64,000 bases of DNA from Pseudomonadota bacterium. GTDB taxonomy: Bacteria; Pseudomonadota; Alphaproteobacteria; Micavibrionales; CSBR16-224. Below are positions 3,511 to 62,000 of this stretch, piece after piece. The notes under the pieces are model-generated. The model made no database searches. It saw nothing but the letters and a program-made list of their open reading frames with translations, and was not told where the DNA came from. The stretch is taken from assembly GCA_013285465.1 (NCBI GenBank), contig CP053449.1:124001-188000 (forward strand), in the 5' to 3' direction. The first letter of the stretch is position 1. Every line of letters begins with the position of its first letter. Position numbers and translations under genes: made by a program.

Positions 3511-3786
3511 ATGGATCAATTTTCTGGTGACATTGCAGCCATGCTAGAAATCGCACTGATCGGCGCCGGTCTGGTGGTTCTTTATTACGGGGGTAAAGAA
3601 GGCTCAAAGCTAATGAAGGCAGGTGCTTGTCTCATGCTGATCGGGGGCTTTTTGGGCCTTGCCTGTACTGGATATTGGTGGTTTAAATATCACAGCATAG
3701 GGGTTTTTGATAACCCGAGAGTTTCAACTGTCAATCTCGTGCACCATGATGGTGACACCAAGCATCATTTCTTTCCTAAAGAGTAA
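3511..3786 (+). CDS. Small two-helix membrane protein in copper/ion operon
   Basis: The 91-residue protein has two hydrophobic stretches (about residues 11-27 and 35-56) and a His-containing C-terminal tail (HHDGDTKHHFFPKE). I do not recognise the family. AGGAAGGAA lies ahead of the ATG at 3511, and its TAA overlaps the ATG of nhaA by one base, so translation is probably coupled to the antiporter. The tail histidines could bind metal as in the DUF2933 protein, but that is only inference from composition. Confidence 0.65.
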   Translation: MDQFSGDIAAMLEIALIGAGLVVLYYGGKEGSKLMKAGACLMLIGGFLGLACTGYWWFKYHSIGVFDNPRVSTVNLVHHDGDTKHHFFPKE

Positions 3787-4982
3787 TGAGAAATATGCAA
3801 AAGCGTACACGCCATTTTGCTGTCGCGGGTAAAATCGCTAGTGCCGATCAATGGGCTAGTCTTATGATGATTGGTGCGCTGGTTGTTGCTTTGTTCTGTG
3901 TTAATTCACCCCTGAAGCTAGCTTACGATATTTTTCACCACACGCCTGTTGCGATCAGTTTCGGAGATTTTGTTCTGCAAAAGCCGCTGGTGTTTTGGAT
4001 TAATGAAGGACTGATGGCACTTTTCTTTTTGGCCGTTACCCTTGAAATTAAGCGCGAGATTCTGGAAGGCCACTTCTCTGGCATGCGCCAAATACTCCTG
4101 CCCGCTTTTGCGGCTTTAGGTGGGATGGCAATTCCGGCGGCGTTTTATTTTTTGCTCAACCGAAATAGTCACGAGTGGATTCAAGGCTGGGCGATTCCAA
4201 CGGCTACCGATATTGCACTTAGTCTCGGCGTGCTGTCATTACTGGGCAAGCGTGTACCGATTGAGCTGAAGCTGTTTCTGGCCGCGCTGGCCATATTTGA
4301 TGATCTGGGCGGGATTCTGATTATTGCACTTTTCTATGGTAGTCACCTGACTGTGAGCGTTCTTCTTTTCTCACTACTTGGTATTGCTACTTTATTTGTA
4401 TTGAATCGCTTGGGTGTACCTCGTGCTTCGCTTTATGTCGTCATCGGCATCTTTTTATGGGCGACTTTTCAAGAATCCGGCATCCATCCGACTATGGCTG
4501 GTGTTGCAGTGGGGCTGGCTTTGCCTTTACGGCTTAAAAAGTCATGCACTCATATCCCTTTGCGCTTTGTTGAGGATGGTTTGCACCCGTGGGTAGCGTT
4601 TTTCGTTATACCGCTTTTTGCTTTTTTTAATGCTGGAATTATTATTAGCGATGTTACTCTGCATTATTTGGAATCATCGCTCTCACTCGGTATTATTGCC
4701 GGACTTGTTCTTGGAAAACCGCTTGGTATTTTTACCTTCGCGTGGCTTTCACATCTATTTGGTTTTGCCAGTTTGGCCCCTCACGTGAGTTGGCGGCATA
4801 TTTTTGGTGTGGCGTTACTTGGTGGGATAGGTTTTACCATGGCGTTGTTTTTAAACACACTGGCCTTTCCTGTTGGGGGTAATTCTGAGGTTGGCAGAAT
4901 AGCAATACTTTCTGGTTCTTTGATATCTGCCCTGGCCGGATATGTATGGTTATACTTCAGCTTGCCAAAATCTGAACATTAA
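3786..4982 (+). CDS. nhaA: Na+/H+ antiporter NhaA
   Basis: This 398-residue integral membrane protein matches NhaA in length and sequence. Recognisable parts are LMALFFLAVTLEIKRE, the ATDIALSLGVLSLLG segment carrying an Asp of the ion site, FDDLGGI with the adjacent Asp pair, and the C-terminal GGIGFTMALFLNTLAF. NhaA exchanges cytoplasmic Na+ for periplasmic H+ and is important at alkaline pH or high salt. The start overlaps the stop of the previous small gene. A second, unrelated Na+/H+ antiporter (NhaD type) lies at 32382-33806 in the core chromosome, so this one is an accessory copy on the island. Confidence 0.93.
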   Translation: MRNMQKRTRHFAVAGKIASADQWASLMMIGALVVALFCVNSPLKLAYDIFHHTPVAISFGDFVLQKPLVFWINEGLMALFFLAVTLEIKREILEGHFSGMRQILLPAFAALGGMAIPAAFYFLLNRNSHEWIQGWAIPTATDIALSLGVLSLLGKRVPIELKLFLAALAIFDDLGGILIIALFYGSHLTVSVLLFSLLGIATLFVLNRLGVPRASLYVVIGIFLWATFQESGIHPTMAGVAVGLALPLRLKKSCTHIPLRFVEDGLHPWVAFFVIPLFAFFNAGIIISDVTLHYLESSLSLGIIAGLVLGKPLGIFTFAWLSHLFGFASLAPHVSWRHIFGVALLGGIGFTMALFLNTLAFPVGGNSEVGRIAILSGSLISALAGYVWLYFSLPKSEH

Positions 4983-5005: not shown

Positions 5006-6373
5006 ATGAAACTGACATTTTTAGGTGCAACTAGTACGGTGACCGGTTCGAAATATCTTCTAGAAGCTGGTGGTAAGAAGATTATGATAGATTGTGGCCT
5101 GTTTCAAGGCCATAAGGAGCTGCGCCTGCGTAATTGGCAAGGATTCCCGGTCAACCCACGCGACATTGATGCGTTGATCTTAACTCATGCCCACCTGGAT
5201 CACAGCGGCTATATTCCCAAACTGACAAATGCTGGGTTTGAAGGGCCGATATACTGTTCCGAGGCCACGTTTGATTTATGCAAAATTTTGTTGCCCGATA
5301 GTGGTCATATTCAGGAAGATGACGCTGAACGCGCTAACCGCTATGGTTATACCAAACATAAACCAGCTTTGCCGCTTTACACGGAGCAAGAAGCCCGTGA
5401 GACATTTGAATATTTCAAACCTGTTGATTTTGGTAAGCCGTACAAGATTACAGATGAGCTTGAATTTACTTTGCATCATGCCGGACATATTTTGGGGGCA
5501 TCTTTTATTAGGGTTAGCGACAAAGGCGGTACATCCATCCTATTTTCTGGCGATATAGGCCGTCTTGACGATCCTGTAATGAAAGCGCCGGAAAAAATAG
5601 AAGATGCTGACTATATTGTTGTGGAATCAACATATGGTGACAGACTGCACGGGAAAAGTGATCCTACAGAAGATATTGAACGTGTCGTTCAGGAGACCAT
5701 TCAGAGAGGTGGTACGGTTGTGATCCCTGCTTTTGCAGTTGGTCGAGCACAAGCTATGATGTTCTACATTCACAAACTAAAAATCACTGGTCGTATACCA
5801 CGTAATCTGTCAGTTTTTCTTGATAGTCCTATGGCAATCAATGTGTCTGATTTGCTTTGTAAACATATAAATGATCACCGAATGCCCCCTAATTTTTGTA
5901 TGGATGTTTGTGGAGTTGCAACATACACGCGCTCTGTAGAGCAATCCAAAGCTATTAACAGTAAAAATAACAATATGCCGAAGATTGTTATTTCAGCTAG
6001 CGGTATGGCGACTGGGGGGCGTGTTCTTCACCATCTAAAGAATTATATTGGTGATGAGCGCAATACCATCCTTTTGGCTGGATTTCAGGCCGGAGGAACG
6101 CGTGGTGCTAGACTGGCTCGTGGAGAAAAGGAAATCAAAATCCATGGTCAACTTTTTCCAGTGCGGGCACAGATCGAGAAGCTCGATAACATGTCGGCGC
6201 ATGCCGATTATGCTGAAATTTTGTCGTGGATGGGTGGTTTTAAAAGCCCACCACGTAAGGTATTTGTTGTCCACGGCGAAGCGACAGCGGCGCGAAGTAT
6301 GAGAGATAAAATCGAAGAAAAATTTGGCTGGAACACAGAGGTTCCCGAATACCTACAAACGGAGGAATTATGA
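5006..6373 (+). CDS. MBL-fold/beta-CASP RNA-processing hydrolase
   Basis: The 455-residue protein has the metallo-beta-lactamase core motif THAHLDHSGY (HxHxDH, about residues 57-66), a downstream metal His in HHAGHILGAS, FSGDIGR with the metal Asp, the beta-CASP motif VESTYGDR, SASGMATGGR, and the terminal SAHAD and VVHGE of the RMMBL domain. Such proteins (CPSF73/YsiB-like) are zinc-dependent endo- or exoribonucleases. AAGGAG precedes the ATG. The stop overlaps the next start (ATGA), tying it to the AMP phosphorylase gene. Together with the phosphorylase and PRPP synthetase it may form an RNA/nucleotide recycling cassette, which is inference. Confidence 0.9.
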   Translation: MKLTFLGATSTVTGSKYLLEAGGKKIMIDCGLFQGHKELRLRNWQGFPVNPRDIDALILTHAHLDHSGYIPKLTNAGFEGPIYCSEATFDLCKILLPDSGHIQEDDAERANRYGYTKHKPALPLYTEQEARETFEYFKPVDFGKPYKITDELEFTLHHAGHILGASFIRVSDKGGTSILFSGDIGRLDDPVMKAPEKIEDADYIVVESTYGDRLHGKSDPTEDIERVVQETIQRGGTVVIPAFAVGRAQAMMFYIHKLKITGRIPRNLSVFLDSPMAINVSDLLCKHINDHRMPPNFCMDVCGVATYTRSVEQSKAINSKNNNMPKIVISASGMATGGRVLHHLKNYIGDERNTILLAGFQAGGTRGARLARGEKEIKIHGQLFPVRAQIEKLDNMSAHADYAEILSWMGGFKSPPRKVFVVHGEATAARSMRDKIEEKFGWNTEVPEYLQTEEL

Positions 6374-7887
6374 CGGACAGACCTAAGTCTATATTGAAGC
6401 TGCGGCGCCTTGGTATAGATACCTATAAGGAGGCCGTGATATATATGCGTGAGGATTGCCATGTTTGTCGTGCTGAAGGCTTTGAAGTACAGGCGCGGGT
6501 TAAAGTAACTCTAAACGGGGAATATTTGATCGCGACGTTGAATATGGTGACATCCGATATTTTGCAGCATGGCGAGGTCAGCTTGTCCGAATATGCTCTA
6601 CAAAAGCTTGAAGCCCGGGATGGGGATGAAATCCATGTTTCTCATCCTTCTCCCGTTCATTCTCTCAGCCATGTACGCTCTAAAATCTATGGTAATGCAT
6701 TGGGATCGGATCATTTGCGGTTGATTGTCAATGACATAGTTGCCGGTCGATATTCAGACATTCATGTGTCTTCTTTTTTAACCGCTTGTGCAGGCGGGCG
6801 ACTTAATGGGATGGAGGTCGTTCATTTAACCCGCGCTATGGTTGATAGTGGTGAGAAGCTGGATTGGGGCGGGAAACTGGTGGTGGATAAGCATTGCGTC
6901 GGCGGCTTGCCAGGAAACCGTACAACACCGATTGTGGTAGCAATTGTTGCAGCGCACGGGCTGACCATGCCAAAGACCTCATCGCGTGCTATAACTTCTC
7001 CGGCAGGAACGGCGGATACGATGGAAGTGCTGACCAATGTTAATCTTGATGTGGTAGCTATGCGCAAAGTAGTGGAGTTGGAAAATGGCTGTGTGGTCTG
7101 GGGTGGTTCAGTGTCTTTAAGCCCTGCAGATGATATTCTCATTCGCGTAGAAAAAGCTTTGGATCTCGATAGTGAAGGGCAACTTGTTGCGTCTATTCTG
7201 TCAAAAAAAATTGCTGCCGGATCTTCGCACGTTTTAATCGATATACCGGTAGGACCTACAGCTAAGATACGTTCTATAGAGATGGCCGCAGAACTTTCCC
7301 GTTACCTGGAACAAACAGGAGCAGAAATGGGGATAGGCGTGCGTGTGCATACAAGCGATGGCAGTCAGCCGATCGGGCGTGGCATTGGTCCCGCTTTGGA
7401 AGCGCGAGATCTTATAGCTGTGTTGAAGGGGGAAAAAGATGCTCCGGATGATTTACGACAACGGGCACTAGACTTGGCTGGATATATTCTAGAATTTTCA
7501 CCGGACGTTGAAAATGGACAAGGTCGAGCACTGGCTATGGCTCTTCTGGAAAACGGCAAGGCATGGGAAAAGTTTCAGGCAATTTGTGAGGCTCAGGGGG
7601 GTATGAAGGATATCCCGACCGCTGGATATACGCAGGTGATTGAATCGAATAGAGCAGGGCAGGTCATGGCTATTGATAACCGCCGTATCGCCCGTGTGGC
7701 AAAATTGGCCGGAGCTCCTGCGGATAGGGAGGCCGGTGTAGATCTCCATAGCCCGGTGGGCACAAAGGTTGAAAAAGGCCAACCGCTTTTTACCGTGCAT
7801 TCTAATGCGCCGGGGGAGCTTGATTACGCGTTGAGTTATCTTGAAGAACAGAATGGGATCATAGACATTCAAGGAGAAACATCATGA
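6370..7887 (+). CDS. AMP phosphorylase / archaeal-type thymidine phosphorylase
   Basis: The 505-residue protein has an extra N-terminal domain of about 90 residues before the nucleoside phosphorylase fold, as in archaeal AMP phosphorylase rather than the roughly 440-residue bacterial DeoA. The phosphate/nucleoside signature KHCVGGLPGNRTTPI (about residues 175-189) and the following TSSRAITSPAGTADTMEV are intact. Archaeal members convert AMP plus phosphate to adenine and ribose 1,5-bisphosphate. Bacterial members of this subgroup are less well studied. It overlaps by four bases both the upstream nuclease gene and the downstream PRPP synthetase gene, a strong sign of coupled translation and shared function. 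Confidence 0.88.
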   Translation: MTDRPKSILKLRRLGIDTYKEAVIYMREDCHVCRAEGFEVQARVKVTLNGEYLIATLNMVTSDILQHGEVSLSEYALQKLEARDGDEIHVSHPSPVHSLSHVRSKIYGNALGSDHLRLIVNDIVAGRYSDIHVSSFLTACAGGRLNGMEVVHLTRAMVDSGEKLDWGGKLVVDKHCVGGLPGNRTTPIVVAIVAAHGLTMPKTSSRAITSPAGTADTMEVLTNVNLDVVAMRKVVELENGCVVWGGSVSLSPADDILIRVEKALDLDSEGQLVASILSKKIAAGSSHVLIDIPVGPTAKIRSIEMAAELSRYLEQTGAEMGIGVRVHTSDGSQPIGRGIGPALEARDLIAVLKGEKDAPDDLRQRALDLAGYILEFSPDVENGQGRALAMALLENGKAWEKFQAICEAQGGMKDIPTAGYTQVIESNRAGQVMAIDNRRIARVAKLAGAPADREAGVDLHSPVGTKVEKGQPLFTVHSNAPGELDYALSYLEEQNGIIDIQGETS

Positions 7888-8771: not shown

Positions 8772-9458
8772 ATGTGCATGTCAGAACCTGTCAGTTTTGT
8801 GGCTGGTGGCATACTATTGGCAGGGGGCGCTTATGCGGCATGGAAAGCCTATAAAATTAACATGCGCTATTTTCCCGTTTCCATGATGCCGGTGTTGGCA
8901 GGCATTCAGCAAATGATGGAAGGGCATGTCTGGATGGGATTGACAAATGGTGATCCGAATATGGTCTGGTGGGGAGCGATGGGATTTATCTTTTTCTCAT
9001 GGCTTATGTGGCCCACCTGGATTCCTTTTGCTATTTACTTTCTGGAGCCGCCTGGTAGTAAACGAAAAAGAACACTTCTGATGTTTTCTTTTGCGGGGCT
9101 AGCATTAGGGCTGACATTATATATCCCACATTTAGCTAATCCCGATTGGGTCAAGGTAGCCATTAATAATCATTCAATAGCTTATGAGGATACGATGTTC
9201 CTCGATTATTTTATCCCGCGTGAGCTGACTTACGCAATTTATATGTTTCTGATCGTCACGCCTCCATTGATTTCGAGATATCTGCATATGCGGCTATTTG
9301 GATTGACCTTGATCATCGTTATCGCTGTGGTTTGGCTTTTCCTTTCCTATGCTTATATTTCGTTTTTCTGCCTGTTGGCAGGTGTGGCAACTATGCACCT
9401 GATCTATATCATCGTTCATAATAAATGTTGTCGAGAATGCCCTGAGCTGTTTCTTTAA
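8772..9458 (+). CDS. DUF6629 family membrane protein
   Basis: The 228-residue protein has about seven hydrophobic segments. The N-terminal pattern (MCMSEPVSFVAGGILLAGG) and the later GIQQMMEGHVWMGL match DUF6629 proteins, which are uncharacterised multi-pass membrane proteins. The ATG lies 3 bases after the PRPP synthetase stop, so it is probably the last gene of the long island operon. No catalytic motif is visible. It ends with a Cys-rich tail (NKCCREC). Nothing in the sequence reveals a substrate, and grouping it with ion or copper stress rests only on context. Confidence 0.7.
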   Translation: MCMSEPVSFVAGGILLAGGAYAAWKAYKINMRYFPVSMMPVLAGIQQMMEGHVWMGLTNGDPNMVWWGAMGFIFFSWLMWPTWIPFAIYFLEPPGSKRKRTLLMFSFAGLALGLTLYIPHLANPDWVKVAINNHSIAYEDTMFLDYFIPRELTYAIYMFLIVTPPLISRYLHMRLFGLTLIIVIAVVWLFLSYAYISFFCLLAGVATMHLIYIIVHNKCCRECPELFL

Positions 9459-9825
9459 GCTTCTTTAATGAGGGTTGTAGAACCCTGGGGATGTCTGTTC
9501 TGGTACACAGATGGGGTCATTTGCTTTTTTTGCCGGTCGCTTAATGCTGGCAACATAATATTATAAATTGCTACCGATTCTTTTTATGGTGCTATTACAC
9601 TGGTAGTATTTTCAAGGCGTTACCCAATTAACATAATTATAAACTATTATTGTTTATTCTATTTCATTGTATTTTATTGTTAAATTGGTTTTTCGATATT
9701 CAAAATGCTGGTTTCCTAGGGTTTTTAGTGTGTTTTTGCGGTATAATAGAAAGATAAGGCTTTTAAAAGCTCAGCACGCTGCAGGAGGGAACTAAACTGC
9801 AAACTTGGAAGGATGTGCTGCCGGA
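9459..9825. other. AT-rich intergenic region with a possible promoter
   Basis: About 370 bases without a convincing gene. The middle is very AT-rich, with A/T runs around 9540-9720. A TATAAT hexamer at 9742-9747 is a candidate -10 box for the next small gene, but no good -35 box is visible at the right distance. An AGGAGGG sequence at 9783-9789 is followed only by a TTG at 9805 in an open frame. Confidence 0.4.
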
Positions 9826-10268: not shown

Positions 10269-10288
10269 GAGTCCTCTTCTGGGCACCA
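10269..10288 (+). other. tRNA 3'-end remnant, putative attachment site (attR/attL)
   Basis: The 20 bases ending in CCA at 10286-10288 fit tRNA positions 57-76: purine-A of the T-loop, pyrimidine 60, invariant C61, five T-stem bases, a seven-base acceptor strand (TCTGGGC), discriminator A, then CCA. Nothing upstream can fold into the rest of a tRNA. A strong terminator begins two bases later, as behind a real tRNA gene. This is the expected footprint of an element that integrated into a tRNA gene, with the element on the left. The tRNA identity is uncertain. Confidence 0.6.
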
Positions 10289-10289
10289 C

Positions 10290-10331
10290 AAACAAAGAAA
10301 AAAGCCCCGTTGGGGGCTTTTTTCTTTGTTT
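10290..10331. terminator. Strong hairpin terminator with 19-bp perfect stem
   Basis: Left arm 10290-10308 and right arm 10313-10331 are perfectly complementary around a GTTG loop. The GC core is four pairs, flanked by A-rich and T-rich arms, so it can stop transcription in both directions. It follows the tRNA 3'-end remnant and was probably the tRNA gene's own terminator. Confidence 0.85.
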
Positions 10332-10345
10332 GTCACTGGAAACTT

Positions 10346-10382
10346 CGCGCAAACAAGCAGCTTTAGCTGCGCCGGTTGCGCG
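10346..10382. other. Nested hairpin between two terminators, possible structured RNA
   Basis: CGCGCAA (10346-10352) pairs with TTGCGCG (10376-10382). Inside it GCAGC (10357-10361) pairs with GCTGC (10366-10370) over a TTTA loop. The outer flanks (TCAC and GTGG) can extend the structure. It lies exactly between two terminator hairpins. No promoter is obvious, so transcription is not shown. Confidence 0.35.
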
Positions 10383-10490: not shown

Positions 10491-10520
10491 GGATTAAATG
10501 TATTGTGTCCCGCTTTTTCC
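10491..10520 (-). repeat. Copy A of a roughly 30-bp repeat, inverted
   Basis: Read on the minus strand this is GGAAAAAGCGGGACACAATA followed by CATTTAATCC, matching the plus-strand copies at 11108-11140 and 11180-11210 apart from one substitution and a short gap. It lies just upstream of the orphan gene at 10551, while the other copies lie just downstream of it, in the opposite orientation. Confidence 0.7.
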
Positions 10521-10550
10521 AATCCACTTCAACGATTAAGGAGTTTAAAA

Positions 10551-11060
10551 ATGGACGAACTCCAAATGATAGATATGCTCGTTAATCAGGATTGGCAAAC
10601 CGTTCGTGCTACAAATCTGTATGAATCTTTAGGAAAGCGCTTTCTTCTTCATATTACCTTTGAAACACAAAAAGGTAATATCACATTAGCTGGCGAAGCA
10701 CATTCAGATAAAGAAGGGTATGACAATAGTTTTTCATTGAGTATTCCTGGATTACGCCCCAAACCTGAATGGGGGATTTCGTCTTCATCAAAAGATGTGT
10801 CGTGGGAAATAATAAATTTTAGCCAACAATGGAAAAATACACCTTTCGAAACCCTTATGAAGGCGCCTCGGGATGTCACATTTAGACATGATCCATTGAT
10901 TTATATTCGTCAATACCCATGTAAAACATTTCTTGATCATTTTGTGTCGATGGAGTTATTCAAAAAAACTGACGATGGAAGGACTGTTAAATTCATTATC
11001 ACGTCCTCTGACGAAGAGCCTTGTTGTGTAGAAATTGAAGAGACAATCGAGGAGAAGTAA
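10551..11060 (+). CDS. Hypothetical protein bracketed by inverted repeats
   Basis: The 169-residue protein has no signal peptide or membrane segment. ATG 10551 has a good AAGGAG site 9 bases upstream, which favours it over the ATG at 10467, whose extension would cross the repeat. Predicted strands alternate with acidic turns (FLLHITFETQKGNITLAGEA), suggesting a beta-rich fold, and the C-terminus is strongly acidic. No family is recognised. The base composition is AT-rich compared with core genes, and the gene is flanked by inverted copies of a 30-bp repeat, so it may have arrived as a small cassette. Confidence 0.65.
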   Translation: MDELQMIDMLVNQDWQTVRATNLYESLGKRFLLHITFETQKGNITLAGEAHSDKEGYDNSFSLSIPGLRPKPEWGISSSSKDVSWEIINFSQQWKNTPFETLMKAPRDVTFRHDPLIYIRQYPCKTFLDHFVSMELFKKTDDGRTVKFIITSSDEEPCCVEIEETIEEK

Positions 11061-11652
11061 AGGGGTCAGATTAGATTGAAAATCCGGCCTTATTGGAAAA
11101 AAGTGTGGAAAAAAGTGGGACACGATACAATTAATTCCCTGACGGGAATCCCGAATGCAACCCCGCTTTGTGCCTGTGTGGAAAAAGCGGGACACGATAC
11201 AATTAATTCCCTCGCGAGAATCCCAAACTTTGTCACAAAGCGGTGGGTTTTTAATGCGTTACCATGCGGGTCAGGAGGATGAGAAGAAACAGGATCAGAA
11301 TAATGATTTGAAGCCTTGTTGCGATTTTATCCCATTTTTTTTGCTCTTTTATATTATCGTTCCTTTTATTCACGCGCCCTCCTTGAAAAACATAGATAAA
11401 CAGCCGCATAGCTTTGCGCTGCGGTACGGGTTTTTATCTATAAAAGGGGCGGCGGGCGGGAGCTGCTATAAGCCAGGATATTTTCAAGGACATCAAACAT
11501 ATTCCGCAGGCTAACACAGGTCATAGGCGGATGCAAAAAATCCGGCTTTCCGGTTTGCTTTTACCGCGCGGGCTTTGCCGGATTGACTCCGGCAAGGCTA
11601 CGCATTAGGCTCATAGCCTTACATATTGCAGAAAATAAAAGGAAGATTGCGG
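11061..11652. other. 592-base intergenic region with repeats and hairpins
   Basis: No convincing gene; the short open frames here are repeat-derived. Besides repeat copies B and C, TAGATAAA (11393-11400) pairs with TTTATCTA (11433-11440) around a CCGCA/TGCGG inner stem. GCTTTGCCGGA (11572-11582) pairs with TCCGGCAAGGC (11588-11598) with one wobble. AGGCT/AGCCT make a further small hairpin at 11607-11619, just before the next gene. The hairpins could be terminators or REP-like units; no T-tract makes any of them a clear terminator. Confidence 0.45.
11103..11227 (+). repeat. Copies B and C of the roughly 30-bp repeat
   Basis: Two direct copies share GTGTGGAAAAA, then GGGACACGATACAATTAA and TTCCCT, followed by a GAGAATCCC/GGGAATCCC tail (11103-11153 and 11176-11227). 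A GGGGTCAGATTAG motif precedes them at 11062. Such GGGGTCAGA and GGGACACGATA blocks resemble sequences often seen near REP-associated tyrosine transposase genes, but no transposase is present here. They are probably remnants of a mobile or REP-like element. Confidence 0.65.
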
Positions 11653-14250: not shown

Positions 14251-14964
14251 TTATGCGGCGTACCTACTAGGTCTAATTTTTCGATCTAAGTATTCAATGG
14301 AACGTTGTTGCATGTTAAAATTTATACTGTGTGGCGCTGTGTTCTCTTTAAATTTAAAGCCTAAGTGTATTGCTGCAAAGACTAGACTGCCCGAACATAC
14401 ATATTTAGGTTCTGATACTTCTCCGTCTGGGTAAGTAAAGCTAAGCTTTTCTGCTATATGCTTCAGCTTGTAGCTACCGTATTTTGTAGTAATTGTTTTT
14501 GTCTTCGGAATTTCACTAACTAAGTGGCAAGAGCGTAGAAATTCTTCAACAGCAAAATCCAATAACATGTCATTACGCTCTCCCATAAAACGCTGTGTGT
14601 ATTCTTGCAGGGTTTCTTCTGGATGGTTTTGCGTATGAATGCCGATTCCTGATCGAGTTAACATGGGATATCTGTCCATGATGCGCCGAATAGCGGCCTT
14701 ACTTGCGGCAAGGTAAAGTGGCTTTGCAGTAGGATGAAAGTCTTTGCCATTTAGGTAATTTCTAAAATCCTTCCAGCTTACAATAGTTTCGAAAGAAGAA
14801 TGTTGATTAGTTGCAGCACGCAATGCGGCATTTGTTTGAAAACCTAGTGCGCGTGCCAGTGCTTCTATACGATGGGATGATTTAATTGCGGGGAGGGTTT
14901 TCCTCAGATCAGCTTTCATCGATTCGATAGTGGCTGAGTCAACAAAGATAGGTAAAGTGAACAT
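14251..14964 (-). CDS. AT-rich orphan protein, hypothetical
   Basis: The 237-residue protein starts at the ATG at 14964 (MFTLPIF), which has AAAGGA upstream at normal spacing; an ATG at 14997 would add 11 residues but has no such site and would overlap an inverted repeat. A helical segment with SSHRIEALARALGFQTNAAL (about residues 28-47) resembles N-terminal motifs of uncharacterised plasmid and mobile-element proteins. No catalytic motif is recognised. Base composition is AT-richer than the flanking core genes, so the gene is probably acquired. Confidence 0.6.
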   Translation of the reverse strand: MFTLPIFVDSATIESMKADLRKTLPAIKSSHRIEALARALGFQTNAALRAATNQHSSFETIVSWKDFRNYLNGKDFHPTAKPLYLAASKAAIRRIMDRYPMLTRSGIGIHTQNHPEETLQEYTQRFMGERNDMLLDFAVEEFLRSCHLVSEIPKTKTITTKYGSYKLKHIAEKLSFTYPDGEVSEPKYVCSGSLVFAAIHLGFKFKENTAPHSINFNMQQRSIEYLDRKIRPSRYAA

Positions 14965-14983
14965 AGATATGTCCTTTCTATAA

Positions 14984-15014
14984 GAGTTATAGTCCATCGA
15001 TTACGCTATAACTC
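14984..15014. promoter_or_regulatory. Inverted repeat upstream of the orphan gene, possible operator
   Basis: GAGTTATAG (14984-14992) and CTATAACTC (15006-15014) are exact inverted 9-base arms separated by 13 bases. They lie 20-50 bases upstream of the chosen start at 14964. Arms of this size, centred about two helical turns apart, suit a dimeric repressor site, which is inference. Confidence 0.4.
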
Positions 15015-49987: not shown

Positions 49988-51790
49988 ATGGACGAAATGA
50001 AAAAACTGTTTTTCCTTATTTTGGCGATTTGTCTGGTGATGCCTGCGGCGGCGGATGCGGCGGCGGAAACCGTCACAGCTGACAGTAAAATCACGGCGGT
50101 GACGGTTTATGCCAACCGTGCGGCGGTAACGCGTACGGCCCGTGTGAAAATCGGCAAAGGTGCGCAGGAAGTGGTGTTTGGCGGGCTTCCGGCGCAGATT
50201 GATACCGATTCCCTGCGTGTGGAGGGACGCTCCCGCGCGACGGTGACGATTGGCGCTTTGATGCATAAACAAGTGATCTCGCAGGAGCTGACATCGGAGC
50301 GGGAGCGGGAACTGAATGAGAAGCTGCAGCTTTTGCGTGACCAAATCGCATCGGAAAATATCGGTTTGGAAGCCCTGCAGGAAAGGCAGAATCTTGTCGG
50401 CAGAATCGGTGATAACACGCCGCTGCAGCGCGATGAGGAATTTCAGCCTGTGGAATTTCATCCCGAGGAATGGGCAAAAGCGGCACAGGCCGTACAGCAG
50501 GATATGTCGGAAACGCTGCGTATGAAACAGCAGCATGATATGAAGATCAGGAAACTAAATGAGGCGGTTGCGCAAATTACGGAAGAGCTGCGGTCGCAGC
50601 GCACGGGGCAGCGCAGCTCCTATCAGGTGACGGTGCCGCTAGACTCATCCGCTGCCGCTGATATGACGATTGAATTGACCTATCAGGTACAGAATGCGTC
50701 ATGGCATCCGATTTATGATGCACGGCTGGAAACGGCGGAAAAAGGCCGTTTGGAACTGGTGCAATATGGTGCGGTGAAACAGCTGTCGGGTGAGGATTGG
50801 AATGATGTGGCACTGACCTTGTCAACGGCGCAGCCGCAGCGCGGCACATCACCGCCTGCATTTTCGCCGATGTGGTTGATGAAGAGAAATTATGACGATA
50901 TGACCTCGGAAGAGTACAGAAGAGCCGTGGAAGATACCAATGTCAAACGTGCAGAGATTGCAAAACGGATCGGCGGTGCAGCACTGCCGACACCGATCGG
51001 GCAGGTTCAGGGTCAGCTGGATGTTAGCCGTGATGAAGAAGAGCAAAATATCGGTACTGACCCGCTACAGGAATGGCGGCGGACAGCGAAAGCAAGCCGC
51101 GCGAAAAAGCCCGGGCAAAAACAGGCGCGTTTTGTTGCCGCGAATATCGAAACCGGCGGTTTTATCAGCGAATATAAGGTGGCCGGTCCGGCGACGATTT
51201 TAAGCGATAATACCGAGAGTAAATTACTGGTCGGATCATTCGAGACGGAAAGCAAGCTTGAGGTGCATGTCCAGCCGGCGCAAACAACGGAAGCCTTTCT
51301 GGTGGCGCATAGCAAGCTGAAAGGGGAAACGCCTATTCTGCCCGGCCCTGTCAGCCTGTTCCGCGATGGCGCTTATATCGGCAAAAGCCGTTTTCCGCTG
51401 CTGCGTCCCGAGGAGGAACATAATCTGTCCTTCGGGATTGATGACCAGATTTCCGTCAAACGCAACAAGCTGAAAGACAAGCGCAAGGAAGACGGGCTGA
51501 TTATCAAGGAGTCGATTATCGAGCGGAATTTCGTCAGTGATATTCAGAATTTGCGTAAAACGCCTGTCGATATCCGTCTGCGCGAAGTCATTCCCGTCAG
51601 TAAATCAGGCGATGTGAAAATCGAAATCCTGAAAGATAAAACATCCGCCGGTTATAAAACGGATGTGGAAAATATCGCCGGATTGACGGAATGGGTCTTT
51701 ACGCTGAAACCTGAACAAAAACAGGAGATGCGTCTTGGCTGGAAAGTGACCTGGCCGAAAGATCAAAATCTGTCGGGTCTGCCGCAATAG
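49988..51790 (+). CDS. DUF4139/DUF4140 exported protein, paralog 1
   Basis: The 600-residue protein has a signal peptide (hydrophobic about 5-20, ending ADAAA), an N-terminal DUF4140 domain starting SKITAVTVYANRAAVTRTA, a coiled coil (about residues 95-190), and a beta-rich C-terminal DUF4139 domain (TYQVQNASWHPIYDARLET, LSGEDWNDVALTLSTAQPQ). Such proteins (the MuiA-type family) are widespread and of unknown function. ATG 49988 is chosen, with GGAGGGG just upstream; an ATG at 49997 would shorten the product by three residues. The next gene is a paralog 29 bases on. Confidence 0.85.
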   Translation: MDEMKKLFFLILAICLVMPAAADAAAETVTADSKITAVTVYANRAAVTRTARVKIGKGAQEVVFGGLPAQIDTDSLRVEGRSRATVTIGALMHKQVISQELTSERERELNEKLQLLRDQIASENIGLEALQERQNLVGRIGDNTPLQRDEEFQPVEFHPEEWAKAAQAVQQDMSETLRMKQQHDMKIRKLNEAVAQITEELRSQRTGQRSSYQVTVPLDSSAAADMTIELTYQVQNASWHPIYDARLETAEKGRLELVQYGAVKQLSGEDWNDVALTLSTAQPQRGTSPPAFSPMWLMKRNYDDMTSEEYRRAVEDTNVKRAEIAKRIGGAALPTPIGQVQGQLDVSRDEEEQNIGTDPLQEWRRTAKASRAKKPGQKQARFVAANIETGGFISEYKVAGPATILSDNTESKLLVGSFETESKLEVHVQPAQTTEAFLVAHSKLKGETPILPGPVSLFRDGAYIGKSRFPLLRPEEEHNLSFGIDDQISVKRNKLKDKRKEDGLIIKESIIERNFVSDIQNLRKTPVDIRLREVIPVSKSGDVKIEILKDKTSAGYKTDVENIAGLTEWVFTLKPEQKQEMRLGWKVTWPKDQNLSGLPQ

Positions 51791-51819
51791 CATAATGGAA
51801 AGAACGGAGTTTTAAAAAG

Positions 51820-53544
51820 ATGCGGGTAAACATGAAACAGATATCTTTTTTTATGCTGGCGCTGCTGCTGATTTTTCCGGCTTTGGCACAGGCGGAGGAA
51901 TTTACGGCGGAAAGTAAAATCAGCGGCGTGACCGTTTATACAAACCGCGCCGCCGTGACGCGGCATGCAAAGATAAAACTGCCGCAAGGGGCGCATACGG
52001 TGGTATTTCGCGGCTTGCCTGACAGAATTGCCACGGATTCCCTGCGTGTGGAAGGCAGTGCCAAGGCGGATGTGGTGATCGGTGCCTTGGCGCATAAACG
52101 GGTGATTACGCAGGAGCTGACCTCGGAAAAAGAGCGGGTGCTGAGCGATAATCTGCAAAAACTCGCTGACCAGATCGGTTTTGAAAAAGCGGAAATCAAT
52201 GCCCTGAAAAACCGTCTGCAGCTGATGGACACGATCAAAACCCATGCCTTGCAGCAAATTAATGAAGAGATCAAAAGCTTTACCCTGCAGCCGCTGCAAT
52301 GGATCAGCGCGGCGAAAAAAATGCAGGAAGAAACCGCCGCCGTTAAACAGGCGCAGCAGCAGCATGATATCAATATCCGTGATTTGAACGAGGCGGTGCA
52401 GAAAGTAAAACGGGAATTATCGTCTTTGCGGACGGGATCGCGCAGCAGTTATGAGGTGACGGTGCCGCTGGAGGCGATGGCGGCAACGGAGCTGGAGCTG
52501 GATTTGACCTATCAGACCGGCAATGCCTCATGGCAGCCGATTTACGATGCGCGTCTTGATACGGATAGCGGTGATCTGGTGCTGGTGCAGTACGGCGCGG
52601 TGCGCCAGCTTTCCGGTGAAGACTGGAGTGATGTGGCTTTGACCTTGTCCACAGCGCAGCCGCATCGTAGTGCCGCCTTGCCGCCACTGAATCCGGTATG
52701 GGTGAATAGTTATAAGTCATCTGTGGATTACAGTGTGTTACGCGCTAACGCAACGGCACAGGGGACTGTTGGCGCTGTTACTGATCCCTTGCAGGAATGG
52801 CGGCGCACAGCGGAGGCGCGGCGGTTTGAAATAGAGTTTAGCGATGACCATGACCCAACGGCAACGGCACCGCAGAAACAGGCACAATTTGCCGCGGCGC
52901 AAGTGGATACCGGCGGTTTTGTCGCCGAATATCGTGTGCCGAATACGGTGACGGTTCTGAGTGATAATGAAGAAACAAAGCTGATGGTCGGCAGTTTTGA
53001 TGTTGAAAACAAGCTGGAAATCCATATCCAGCCGCAGCATCTGGCGGAGGCGTTTCTGGTGGCGCATGGCAAGCTGAAAAGCGAAGCGCCTGTTTTGCCC
53101 GGGCAGGTGAATCTGTTCCGTGACGGTGCTTATGTCGGGAAAACGCGGATTCCGCTGCTGCGCCCCGAGGAAGAGCATAATCTGTTCTTTGGTGTTGATG
53201 ACAGCCTGTCCGTCAAGCGCAATACGTTGAAAGACGAACGCAAGGATGACGGATTGATTGTGAAGGAGGCTTCATTGGAGCGCCATTACATTACGGAGAT
53301 CAAAAATCTGCGCAAAACCCCTGTTGATATCCGTGTGCGTGAAACCGTGCCGGTCAGCAAGGATGACGAGATTGAAATCGCCATCCTGCGCGATAAAACC
53401 ACGCAGGGTTATGAGACGGATATTGACAAGATTAGCGGTCTGACGGGATGGTCATTCACGCTTGCGCCCGAAGAGCAGAAAGATATCCGCCTTGGCTGGA
53501 AAGTGACCTGGCCGCAAGAGGACAGAATTACCGGCCTGCCATAG
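51820..53544 (+). CDS. DUF4139/DUF4140 exported protein, paralog 2
   Basis: The 574-residue protein has a signal peptide ending in ALAQA, then SKISGVTVYTNRAAVTRHA (DUF4140), a coiled coil, and LTYQTGNASWQPIYDARLDT with LSGEDWSDVALTLSTAQPH (DUF4139). It aligns with the previous gene throughout and ends the same way (W-K-V-T-W-P, then a short tail), so the pair is a tandem duplication. The middle region before residue 330 is shorter and diverged. Two in-frame Met (51820 and 51832) are possible starts. It converges with the protease gene, the stops being eight bases apart. Confidence 0.85.
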   Translation: MRVNMKQISFFMLALLLIFPALAQAEEFTAESKISGVTVYTNRAAVTRHAKIKLPQGAHTVVFRGLPDRIATDSLRVEGSAKADVVIGALAHKRVITQELTSEKERVLSDNLQKLADQIGFEKAEINALKNRLQLMDTIKTHALQQINEEIKSFTLQPLQWISAAKKMQEETAAVKQAQQQHDINIRDLNEAVQKVKRELSSLRTGSRSSYEVTVPLEAMAATELELDLTYQTGNASWQPIYDARLDTDSGDLVLVQYGAVRQLSGEDWSDVALTLSTAQPHRSAALPPLNPVWVNSYKSSVDYSVLRANATAQGTVGAVTDPLQEWRRTAEARRFEIEFSDDHDPTATAPQKQAQFAAAQVDTGGFVAEYRVPNTVTVLSDNEETKLMVGSFDVENKLEIHIQPQHLAEAFLVAHGKLKSEAPVLPGQVNLFRDGAYVGKTRIPLLRPEEEHNLFFGVDDSLSVKRNTLKDERKDDGLIVKEASLERHYITEIKNLRKTPVDIRVRETVPVSKDDEIEIAILRDKTTQGYETDIDKISGLTGWSFTLAPEEQKDIRLGWKVTWPQEDRITGLP

Positions 53545-59071: not shown

Positions 59072-62000
59072 TTACTGGATCAGAATCGGTTCCTGACTAT
59101 GTGACAGCTGTGCGGGGATATGGTCGATTTTGACGGCTGCGCCGGAAAGCGACTGTAGCGCCGGAACAAGACCTGCGGTCAGTGTTTGCAGATCGCGGCT
59201 GTAAACGGGTTGTGCGACATGAACGATGGCCGAGAAGCTGTGCTGCGGTACGGCATAGAAAACAAACACGGCCTCGTAATTATTGCCCTGAACGGGGCAA
59301 AGCGTGTGAACGCTTTGAATACTGTCGCTGACGGTTTTATCGGACAAGACGCGCAATTTGTTTTCACAATCCTGATTATAGCGCGAGACATAACGCGCCG
59401 CGAGATCACGGAGATTGGCGTTTTTATATTGCGGCCATGCCTGTTGTTCAAACAAGCCGTTGGCAACACCTGCGCTCCATTTCAGCATATAGCCGTCTTC
59501 GCTGAGTTGCGGGTTCTCCGGTGCGATACCGGATTTTTTCAACAGGGCCGATAGCGGCTGTTCCGCCGTGGCGGTACTGCCATAGGACGGCAGCGGGGCG
59601 GCTTTTTGCTGTACCGGTGCGGGGGCTGCCAAAACCTGTGTTTGCACAGTCTGTTTTGTCTGCATCGGCATATGTGCCGATGGTGCGGTCAGATCGTGAT
59701 ATTGCGGCTGCGGTTGTTGCTGCTGCTGTATGACGGGGTGTTCCGCATAAATAGTCGTTTGCTGTTGTTGCTGCATCTGCATCATTTCCGCAGCGACCTG
59801 TGCGGCTTCATTTGCGCGTTTTTCGCGCTCGGCCAGAACGCTGGACGGGGTCGGAACATCCAAAGCGGTGGCCGGACGTTCGCCGCGGTGGACGGCCATA
59901 ATACCGTCAAGGAAATTGCGATACGCATCGGGAGCGGGCTCTGCTGCTACGGGAGCTGCTTGTGCCTGCATATTACCGGATGCCGCGGCATAAGGCATAT
60001 GCGTGCTGACAGCAGGTTCCATCGCCGTGACGGTGTTTTCAGGCGTATTATCCGCAGGTGCCTGCGGCTCGTAATCGGGAATATACTGCCCGCCCTGCTG
60101 TGCCTGCATACGTGCCGTTTCTGTCGTGACGGGAGCGGGCAGGGAATTGGCCCAGTTGTTTTGTGATTGGTGCGGCGTTTGTGTCGGTTTTGCACCGGGG
60201 TTGTAGCTGCGCTCCAATGCGGCGAGATCTTCCGCAGAGATTTCTTTCACGACCAAAGACGGTTTTGCGTTACCGCCGGCCTGCGGTTCGATATGGGTCA
60301 TGGCGGCAGAGGCGATATCGTTATCTCTTCCGGTATAGCGTTTATTGACGTGTTCGATCTTTTCCCGTGCGGCGCGTGCAGCTGCCAGCTCGGCGGCATA
60401 TTTTGTTTCCTGCGCGGCAACGCGTGCGGCGGTGTCCTGCGCAATTTTTTGTTTTTCCTGTTCGGCGGCAGCCAGACGCTGTTGAACGGCGGCGTTTTCG
60501 CGGATCAGTTTTTGACGTTCCGCCTCATGTTGGGTACGCAGGGCGGCGAGTTCTTTTTCCAGACGTGCTTTTTCCGCCAACACGCCCTGATCGGCTTGTT
60601 TTGCTGCAAGCGCGGCTTTTTGCTGTGCCTGTTGCAGACCGGCAAGGCGTTCCTGCATTTGCAGATTTTCGCGCATCAGCTTCATACGTTCGTCTTCATG
60701 CTGTTTTTGCAAGGCTGCGATGCGCTGTTCCGCGGCGGTGAGTTCCTCTGCCGTTTTGGCCGCATTGCGGGCGCGGGCGGCTTCTTCCTGCTGCGCCTGC
60801 TGCAGACTGGCAAGACGAGCCTGCATTTTTTCATTTTCTTCCAGCAGTTTTTGCTGCTCGGCATCATGCTGTTGTTTTAAAGAGGCCATACGTGCCGCGG
60901 CGGCTTGCATTTCAGCCTGTTTCGCAGCGGCGGCTTTTGTTGCGGCTTCGCGTTCCATCTCTGTACGTAGTTTGGCAATTTCCTGCTGTTTTTCCGTTTC
61001 CAGTTTGGAGAGATAATCCTGCAACTTTTTATTATTCGCGCTCAGCAGTTGGCGTTCCGCCTCATGCTGTTTTTGCAGTTCGGCCAGTTTGGATTCGGCG
61101 GCGCGGCGTTCCGCATCCGTTGCCGTTTTTTCCTTGGCAAGGGCGGCGGCGGTTTCTTGCGCTTGTTGCAAGGCCGCCATTTTTTCCTGCATGCGGCTGT
61201 TTTCCGCGATCAGCTGTGCACGTTCGGCGGCGTGACGCTTTTCCATCTCGCGGATATGCGCTTCGGCCTGTTGTTTTTCTTCCGCTGTGACGGCTTTGCT
61301 GCGGGCTTGTTCGGCTTCCGCTTTTTGTGCTGTCTGCAGATTGGCGATTTGCTCCTGCATGCGGCTGTTATCGGCGATCAGCTGCGCGCGTTCGGCGGCG
61401 TGGCGTTTTTCAATCGCGATGATTTTCCGCTCGGCTTTTAAACGCTCATCCTCGGCGGCGCGGCTGCCTGTGGTGATCTGTACCGGCGTTTTGACGGATT
61501 TCTGATTTTGCAATTCGGTGATGCGGTTTTGCATCTCCTTGTTTTCTTTGACCAGTTTGGACATTTCCGTCTGATAACGTTTTTCCAGCGAATCCATTTT
61601 TTGGTAAGCATCCGTCAGCTCTTTGGTCGTTGTGGCCCCATTCGCGCCTGCGACCTGCTGCTGCAGTTTTTGAATGCGCAACCGCTCTTTTTCCAGCCAT
61701 TCCCGCTGCTGGACAAGGCCGCGTGCCTGACGTTCCAGATCTTCCTGTTTTTTCATCAGTTCAAAATCGACCTGTGCGATATTCAGGTTTTTGAAACCGT
61801 GTCTGTCCTGCGCATCCTTGTAAAGGGTAGCGTTTTCGATTTGTTTGCGCTGCAGGGAGAGGGAGTGTTTCAGCTCCTCCAGTTCCTTTTCCTTTTTGAT
61901 CAGCTGTGCGCGCAGTTCGGACACATCGGACGCATCGGCCAGCGCTTCCTGTTGCCGGGAGGAAACCGGAGCGGCTTTCAGCGGTGCAACATTCTGTACA

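Follow-up and report, generated by a model that had tools for sequence, protein, structure and literature searches.

Outward-facing repeat arms around an AT-rich orphan gene and other accessory genes in an alphaproteobacterial genome

Introduction

REPINs and TIR repeats are usually viewed as selfish or regulatory repeats that sit at the ends of genes. Passenger genes can also lie between transposon ends without a transposase, as in MICs and TIME-COMPs, the ends of which we take to be of the DDE kind, unlike the ends described here, which are presumably of the IS200-like tyrosine kind.

The closest described relatives of the repeats reported here are the terminal inverted repeats of TIRYT elements. 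These repeats share the published consensus GGGGWSAS (PMC3733652; PMC6006769); the former paper also describes TIRs that occur as dimers and small families, and REPs that sit near the 3' ends of ORFs (PMC3733652). The ends termed TIRYT or TIRtron probably correspond to TnpA_REP subclass 2.1 (PMC6006769). REPINs are characterized as inverted doublets with a spacer that are capable of forming hairpins, and it has been proposed that they depend on a RAYT, which would move them in trans (PMC3116915). The REPs of a rayt gene are reported to be about tenfold scarcer in strains that lack the gene (PMC2817692). A literature search that covered titles and abstract openings, with most subscription journals outside its scope, found no description of TIRYT or REPIN units on both sides of genes, and the arm strings had no match in the literature searched.

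Here we compare with these systems a locus in a 64-kb stretch of DNA, the whole of which is called the window below. It belongs to a genome (G000) that consists of a single contig of 2.67 Mb and is 98.4% complete. We give even chances to the reading that genus-limited, non-autonomous REPIN-like units form collars around accessory genes and that the copy in the window is a reduced member of this group.

Results

Repeat arms around an orphan gene in the window

An earlier note on this DNA had described inverted copies of a repeat on either side of an AT-rich orphan gene, and our analysis confirmed this arrangement, with copy A on the minus strand and copies B and C on the plus strand around the ORF at 10551-11060. 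The features of the locus, in window coordinates, are as follows.

10493..10521, minus strand: copy A, the left arm, with TGGAAAAAGCGGGACACAATACATTTAAT on the minus strand; a single arm without the promoter-like spacer of other copies
10498..10539, plus strand: putative short leader ORF beginning within copy A, MYCVPLFPIHFND followed by a stop codon, as read from translation only
10540..10543, plus strand: GGAG, a Shine-Dalgarno-like site 7 nt before the ATG at 10551
10551..11060, plus strand: bracketed orphan ORF of 169 aa, GC 37.6%, between copies A and B
11061..11069, plus strand: AGGGGTCAG, immediately 3' of the stop codon of the orphan ORF
11095..11105, plus strand: partial tandem copy of the outer edge of the arm, GGAAAAAAGTG, upstream of copy B
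11110..11155, plus strand: copy B, the right arm, with an ATTCCC-TGAC-GGGAAT hairpin; forms a repeat pair with copy C
11182..11227, plus strand: copy C, a second right arm and direct repeat of B, starting 72 nt downstream of it

One inverted pair (10493-10521 and 11179-11207; 29 nt, 93% complementary, 657 nt apart) and one direct pair (11110-11155 and 11182-11227; 46 nt, 89% identical) were found. An 18-mer core, allowing up to three mismatches, occurs three times in the 64-kb window as against a shuffle mean of 0.04, and TTGACACNNNNGGCGCNNNGNT, allowing up to two, has no occurrence there. The leader ORF at 10498-10539 has a stop codon that ends 11 nt upstream of the orphan ATG. On the other side of the gene, GGGGTCAG (11062-11069) fits GGGGWSAS, and partial arm copies resembling that at 11095-11105 were also met at four further loci (L006, L007, L043 and L045). 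The hairpin of copy B did not rise above shuffles (z -0.50), and a 42-nt stretch of this copy recurs at 98% identity in L007.

The GC content of the orphan ORF compares with 51.4% for the window as a whole. Because one of the 125 tiles of 510 bp, elsewhere in the window (9181-9690), is equally low in GC, the ORF is AT-rich yet not unique in its AT-richness. It had no matches in Pfam, NCBIfam, PADLOC, plasmids, phages or IMG/VR peptide patterns; the best PHROGs match had an E value of 0.16, and PDB sequences gave E ≥ 0.33. Within the databases searched, the orphan status of this predicted gene holds. A single-sequence AlphaFold model of its product had a mean pLDDT of 37.1 and was useless. A search of phages with the stretch from the window hit three records over 26-32 nt (E 0.2-0.8), and we judged these hits to be due to chance. 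The copy in the window belongs to the most reduced ones of the set described below and by itself proves little.

Further copies in the same genome and in a relative

Exact GGGACACRATAC half-repeats number seven in G000, where they lie at four places, with none for the reversed control. Of two further genomes of the same genus, G004 holds 14 and G003 none. At three of the four places in G000 (the window, L006 and L039) the arms face outwards and bracket one accessory ORF, and two G004 loci (L040 and L044) bracket three ORFs, which answers in the affirmative the question, left by the earlier note, of whether other copies bracket single genes. The repeat is neither unique to the window nor a mere set of operon-end REPs without a link to genes.

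L006 (G000, C1:353 kb) holds another ORF of 169 aa (3630-4139), which is preceded by a left arm with one mismatch and followed by a right arm containing nested partial copies; this ORF had no significant family match in PHROGs, Pfam, PADLOC or NCBIfam, and no plasmid match. In L039 (G000, C1:1,244 kb), left arms precede an ORF of 434 aa (5220-6524); the right arm behind it is decayed, has two mismatches and encloses the stop codon of the ORF itself. A lone arm is found in L007, also in G000, where it follows the stop codon of a relaxase gene; the surrounding stretch bears an integrase. In G004, L040 (3340-4846) has the order unit, Sel1-repeat ORF, unit, SCO4402-like ORF, arm, and L044 consists of a unit, an ORF of the same SCO4402-like family with a 55-codon fused leader ahead of it, and another unit. 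Several other copies in G004 are situated close to the end of a contig (C21, C44, C65, C183 and C194), which leaves their far sides unseen.

Anatomy and distribution of the units

The units of which both arms are seen fall into two classes, class II of 112-133 bp and class I of 162-169 bp. Class II arms read GGGGACACAATACTTAATT or close to it, and those of L039, L040 (3444), L041, L042 and L044 contain GGGGACAC, which fits GGGGWSAS; class I arms read GCGGGACACGATACAATTAATT / AAAAAGCGGGACACAATACATTTTT. The arms in the window, which are of class I, read CGGGACAC or TGGGACAC, with CGGG or TGGG for GGGG and two extra bases. In both classes the spacer is GGATTGACAC-n4-GGCGC or similar, and a GGAG-like site precedes the right arm. 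An alignment suggests that class I may be class II with a decayed right arm and one further arm.

Full units with inverted arms and a spacer are present in L039, L040, L041, L044 and L046. The window has single arms only, two of them (B and C) in direct orientation, and no promoter-like spacer. When two units were folded as single strands their arms paired, with z values of -2.06 and -2.15 (equalled by five and three of 200 shuffles, respectively); the lone arms of the window do not stand out (z -0.50, +1.08 and -0.03). A spacer-like TTGACAC...GGCGC block also lies upstream of other genes (L160 at 1038; L193 at about 1330-1352), and its presence there is the reason why we consider that the spacer may be a type of host promoter.

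Inverted arms around a promoter-like spacer would also be expected of an invertible promoter switch, in which a recombinase flips a promoter between inverted repeats. We regard this explanation as very improbable, because the two arms consistently differ (GATACAATTAATT versus AATACATTTTT), the spacer has one and the same orientation relative to the arms in the four class I copies that possess it, and the arms in the window enclose a gene and not a promoter.

The units had a narrow distribution in our searches. The longer core was found in two of the seven genomes of the family, own genome included, namely G000 and G004, and the class I core (18-mer, at most one mismatch) in the same two among 142 genomes of the order. 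The exact 20-mer occurred in six stretches of the genome contig collection; four of these come from the MAG CSBr16_224, which is apparently the same assembly as G004, and the other two (L016 and L019) look like chance matches. A sequence model of the units gave matches at E < 1e-3 in G000 (1) and G004 (12), nine of these 13 being the model's own rows and the one in G004 C146 covering the promoter-like block only. The same model had no match at this level in any of 19 other genomes, the best among them (E 0.009) being to an arm only. Plasmid searches with the L044 ORF and with a class II unit found nothing, nor did an IMG/VR search for the exact class II end.

Similarity of the class II arms to transposase-associated repeats

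The class II end (22-mer, at most two mismatches) was detected in 14 of 385 genomes of the class, with none for the reversed control and none in G000. Among the matches listed, these ends mostly form tight palindromic pairs, and at the loci seen such pairs were intergenic, with no single ORF bracketed by them. Y1_Tnp was present in nine of the 14 motif-bearing genomes and had no match in the other five. The nine gave 20 Y1 matches, two of which are overlapping pieces of one locus. A 19-mer motif (at most three mismatches) matched 18 times in the 20 Y1 loci (60 kb) versus 0.02 times in first-order shuffles. It flanks the Y1 match on both sides at four loci (L078, L083, L085 and L086) and on a single side at L091; L080 has one weak match, and 14 of the 20 loci are without the motif. 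The Y1 domain was confirmed in two full ORFs. The same or related ends flank a Y1 transposase in other Alphaproteobacteria in their class II form, and because the window arms are of class I, their tie to Y1 ends runs only via class II.

Set beside the TIRYT or TIRtron elements, the arms resemble terminal repeats in that GGGGACAC of class II fits the consensus and related arms flank Y1 genes elsewhere. They differ in that G000 has no Y1 match, class I arms, including those of the window, lack the first G, and the units here have a promoter-like spacer and accessory genes between them. The full units are, like REPINs, inverted doublets with a spacer and capable of forming hairpins. However, REPINs are described as numerous, extragenic and accompanied by a resident RAYT, whereas here there are 7 half-sites in G000, 14 in G004 and 0 in G003, which is short of the high copy number of REPINs and REPs, no RAYT was found, and start and stop codons are shared with the units around accessory genes. 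The GTAG or CGTC tag that marks one end of the palindrome in REPs is absent from the three window arms, each read on its own strand. The low copy number fits the depletion of REPs reported for rayt-less strains (PMC2817692).

The arrangement is also like that of MICs and TIME-COMPs, since at three of the four G000 places a passenger lies between transposon-like ends and no cognate transposase was found.

Overlap of the units with reading frames

Leaders, read from a start codon inside the left unit (the arms of L192 being decayed), are fused to or overlap the next same-strand ORF in seven of nine units; this count is somewhat generous because a class I leader can be read from either of two start codons. 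In-frame fusions to the ORF occur in L006, L041 and L192, and the leader overlaps the start of the ORF in L040 (for both ORFs), L044 and L046. It is unlinked to the ORF in L039, and the window leader is the one that ends shortly before its ORF. No start coupling was seen in five other units that were read (L042, the class I unit of L044, L045, L161 and L191). Seven ORFs have a right side that can be seen. Five of them (L039, the two of L040, L044 and L045) terminate within or at an arm or unit, and the ORFs of L006 and the window stop short of the right arm. These seven ORFs have a GC content of 35-42%, and that of L192 is 48%.

Only two of the passengers belong to a clear family, the Sel1-repeat ORF and the ORF of L039. 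The latter matched PF09509 (E 2.6e-34) and the PADLOC model PD-Lambda-3_B (E 4.3e-16), and its predicted product is Abi/HEPN-like (Ymh/HEPN-like) and is matched by phage-defence models. The two SCO4402-like ORFs scored 27 and 46 bits, under the curated cut-off of 50 of that family, and are weakly SCO4402-like; DUF7945 exceeded its cut-off for the L044 ORF only. The fused leader of L044 may be a toxin tail. Together, the SCO4402-like pair and this putative toxin tail would fit a possible theme of immunity genes.

A serious rival is that the bracketing is incidental: ordinary TIR or REP repeats would have inserted next to the ends of genes, chiefly where AT-rich DNA had been acquired recently, and two such insertions would mimic a cassette. 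We consider this possible, if on the doubtful side. The reported location of REPs near the 3' ends of ORFs (PMC3733652) and the intergenic palindromic pairs that make up most of the related repeats among the loci listed from the class would both agree with it, as would the lone arm beside the relaxase gene, a unit in L042 that appears to cut a gene short, and two units that lie antisense to a gene (the class I unit of L044 and that of L191). However, the copies are few in 2.67 Mb and yet most of their places bracket a single ORF, start and stop codons are repeatedly fused to or overlap the arms, and L040 holds two consecutive cassettes.

AT-rich accessory genes in a row, with dyad-symmetric sites between them, also call to mind the gene cassettes of integrons. 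Such an origin appears extremely improbable here, as the sites are inverted on both sides of a gene instead of occurring as one site per gene in one direction, and the L007 integrase, the one that was scanned, gave weak matches only to Xer-type models.

Transposase and empty sites

A search with PF01797 (Y1) gave no match at E ≤ 10 in G000, G003 or G004, whereas 10 of 14 control genomes were matched. A REP-associated transposase, which the earlier note had named as a thing to look for, was therefore not detected in the genome itself or in two others of its genus. No clean empty site was obtained from the window flanks, the dapB-ogt interval or the L040 flanks; in G004 the dapB-ogt interval is without the arms and the L006 cassette but has another ORF, and in G000 the flanks of L040 are separated from each other. 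In DNA searches of the own genome and six others of the family, neither the window passenger nor that of L006 had a second copy.

These results bear on the idea, put forward in the earlier note, of a MITE-like cassette moved in trans. The bracketing and the Y1-like class II arms found elsewhere speak for the cassette, but no clean empty site was obtained and, as no Y1 was found, movement in trans has no mover in sight. In its explicit form the outer arms and the gene would move as one, by means of a Y1 or other transposase that is encoded on a plasmid, is present in other strains or belongs to an undetected family. We judge this to be quite unlikely. Outward-facing arms around single genes and Y1 genes between related arms in other genomes would be expected under such a scheme, and cassettes without a transposase, such as MICs and TIME-COMPs, have been reported. 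Against it stand, besides the missing transposase, empty sites and second copies, L083 and L085, in which the Y1 gene lies inside GGGGACAC...GTGTCCCC, an orientation opposite to that of the cassettes here.

Discussion

To return to the reading in which REPIN-like units form collars around accessory genes, we propose the following scheme. The arms would have their origin in terminal inverted repeats that belong to IS200-like tyrosine transposases of the TIRYT/RAYT kind, and a full member would consist of an arm, a spacer resembling a promoter and Shine-Dalgarno site, and a second arm, the whole folding on itself as a single strand. Units of this type would flank single accessory genes on both sides. 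The left unit would contribute a promoter and a ribosome site, and its start codon would be fused with the gene or coupled to it; the right unit would often provide the stop. A gene between two units could be exchanged between loci by recombination between the units, or may formerly have been exchanged with the help of a Y1 transposase supplied in trans; that cassettes have moved is our inference. The window would then represent a reduced example, with a single left arm ahead of the gene and two right arms behind it. Taken together, the loci provide an actual example of repeats that may supply a bracketed gene with its promoter, start and stop.

A more far-reaching proposal is that of a gene-collar system, in which low-copy inverted units, derived from an IS200-like tyrosine element and bearing a promoter and start codon, would swap single genes of a defence- or immunity-like nature among loci of the chromosome. 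Each captured gene would be joined to the start codon of one unit and end in the arm of the next. We think this proposal unlikely. If true, it would work like a cassette array without a transposase, in place of an integron. 

If the units also act as expression collars around accessory genes that can be exchanged, they would give a small, transposase-poor route for collecting orphan and defence-like genes, and this would be a reason for where some orphan genes sit.

Other features of the window and related loci

Near the L160 block mentioned above, at 1023-1795, the promoter-like sequence lies without arms upstream of two small ORFs, which look like a RelE-type toxin and an antitoxin. In L040 (4804-4939) and L045 (388-524), a 138-bp stretch that is 75% identical between the two lies 3' of the right arm; L040 has a GGAGG-like site in this stretch, the start reads VPRDFY in both loci, and in L040 the end of the VPRDFY frame seems, on visual inspection, to overlap with the start of the gene that follows. 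A decayed arm in L161 (about 1460-1500), near a G004 contig end, adjoins what looks by eye to be the counterpart of the window gene at 14251-14997 on the minus strand, beside which the window has no arm.

Upstream of the orphan locus, the segment 9570-10288 of the window contains a small ORF and a stretch that ends in the tRNA-3'-end-like TTCTGGGCACCA, and is 85% identical to a segment of G004:C105. ARAGORN found no tRNA in the window. The G004 homologue has a different context, beside other small ORFs, one of which is presumably toxin-tail-like, and the window segment is possibly the edge of an island. An Rfam search gave no match on the repeats and four matches below the gathering score on a palindrome at 10277-10354. 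A perfect 21-bp inverted repeat (ACAAACAAAGAAAAAAGCCCC) at 10288-10333 is terminator-like and has similar copies in G003 and G004. Finally, 50528-53171 and 60505-61435 of the window contain diverged direct repeats, about 65-82% identical, which are perhaps paralogous or internally repeated genes.
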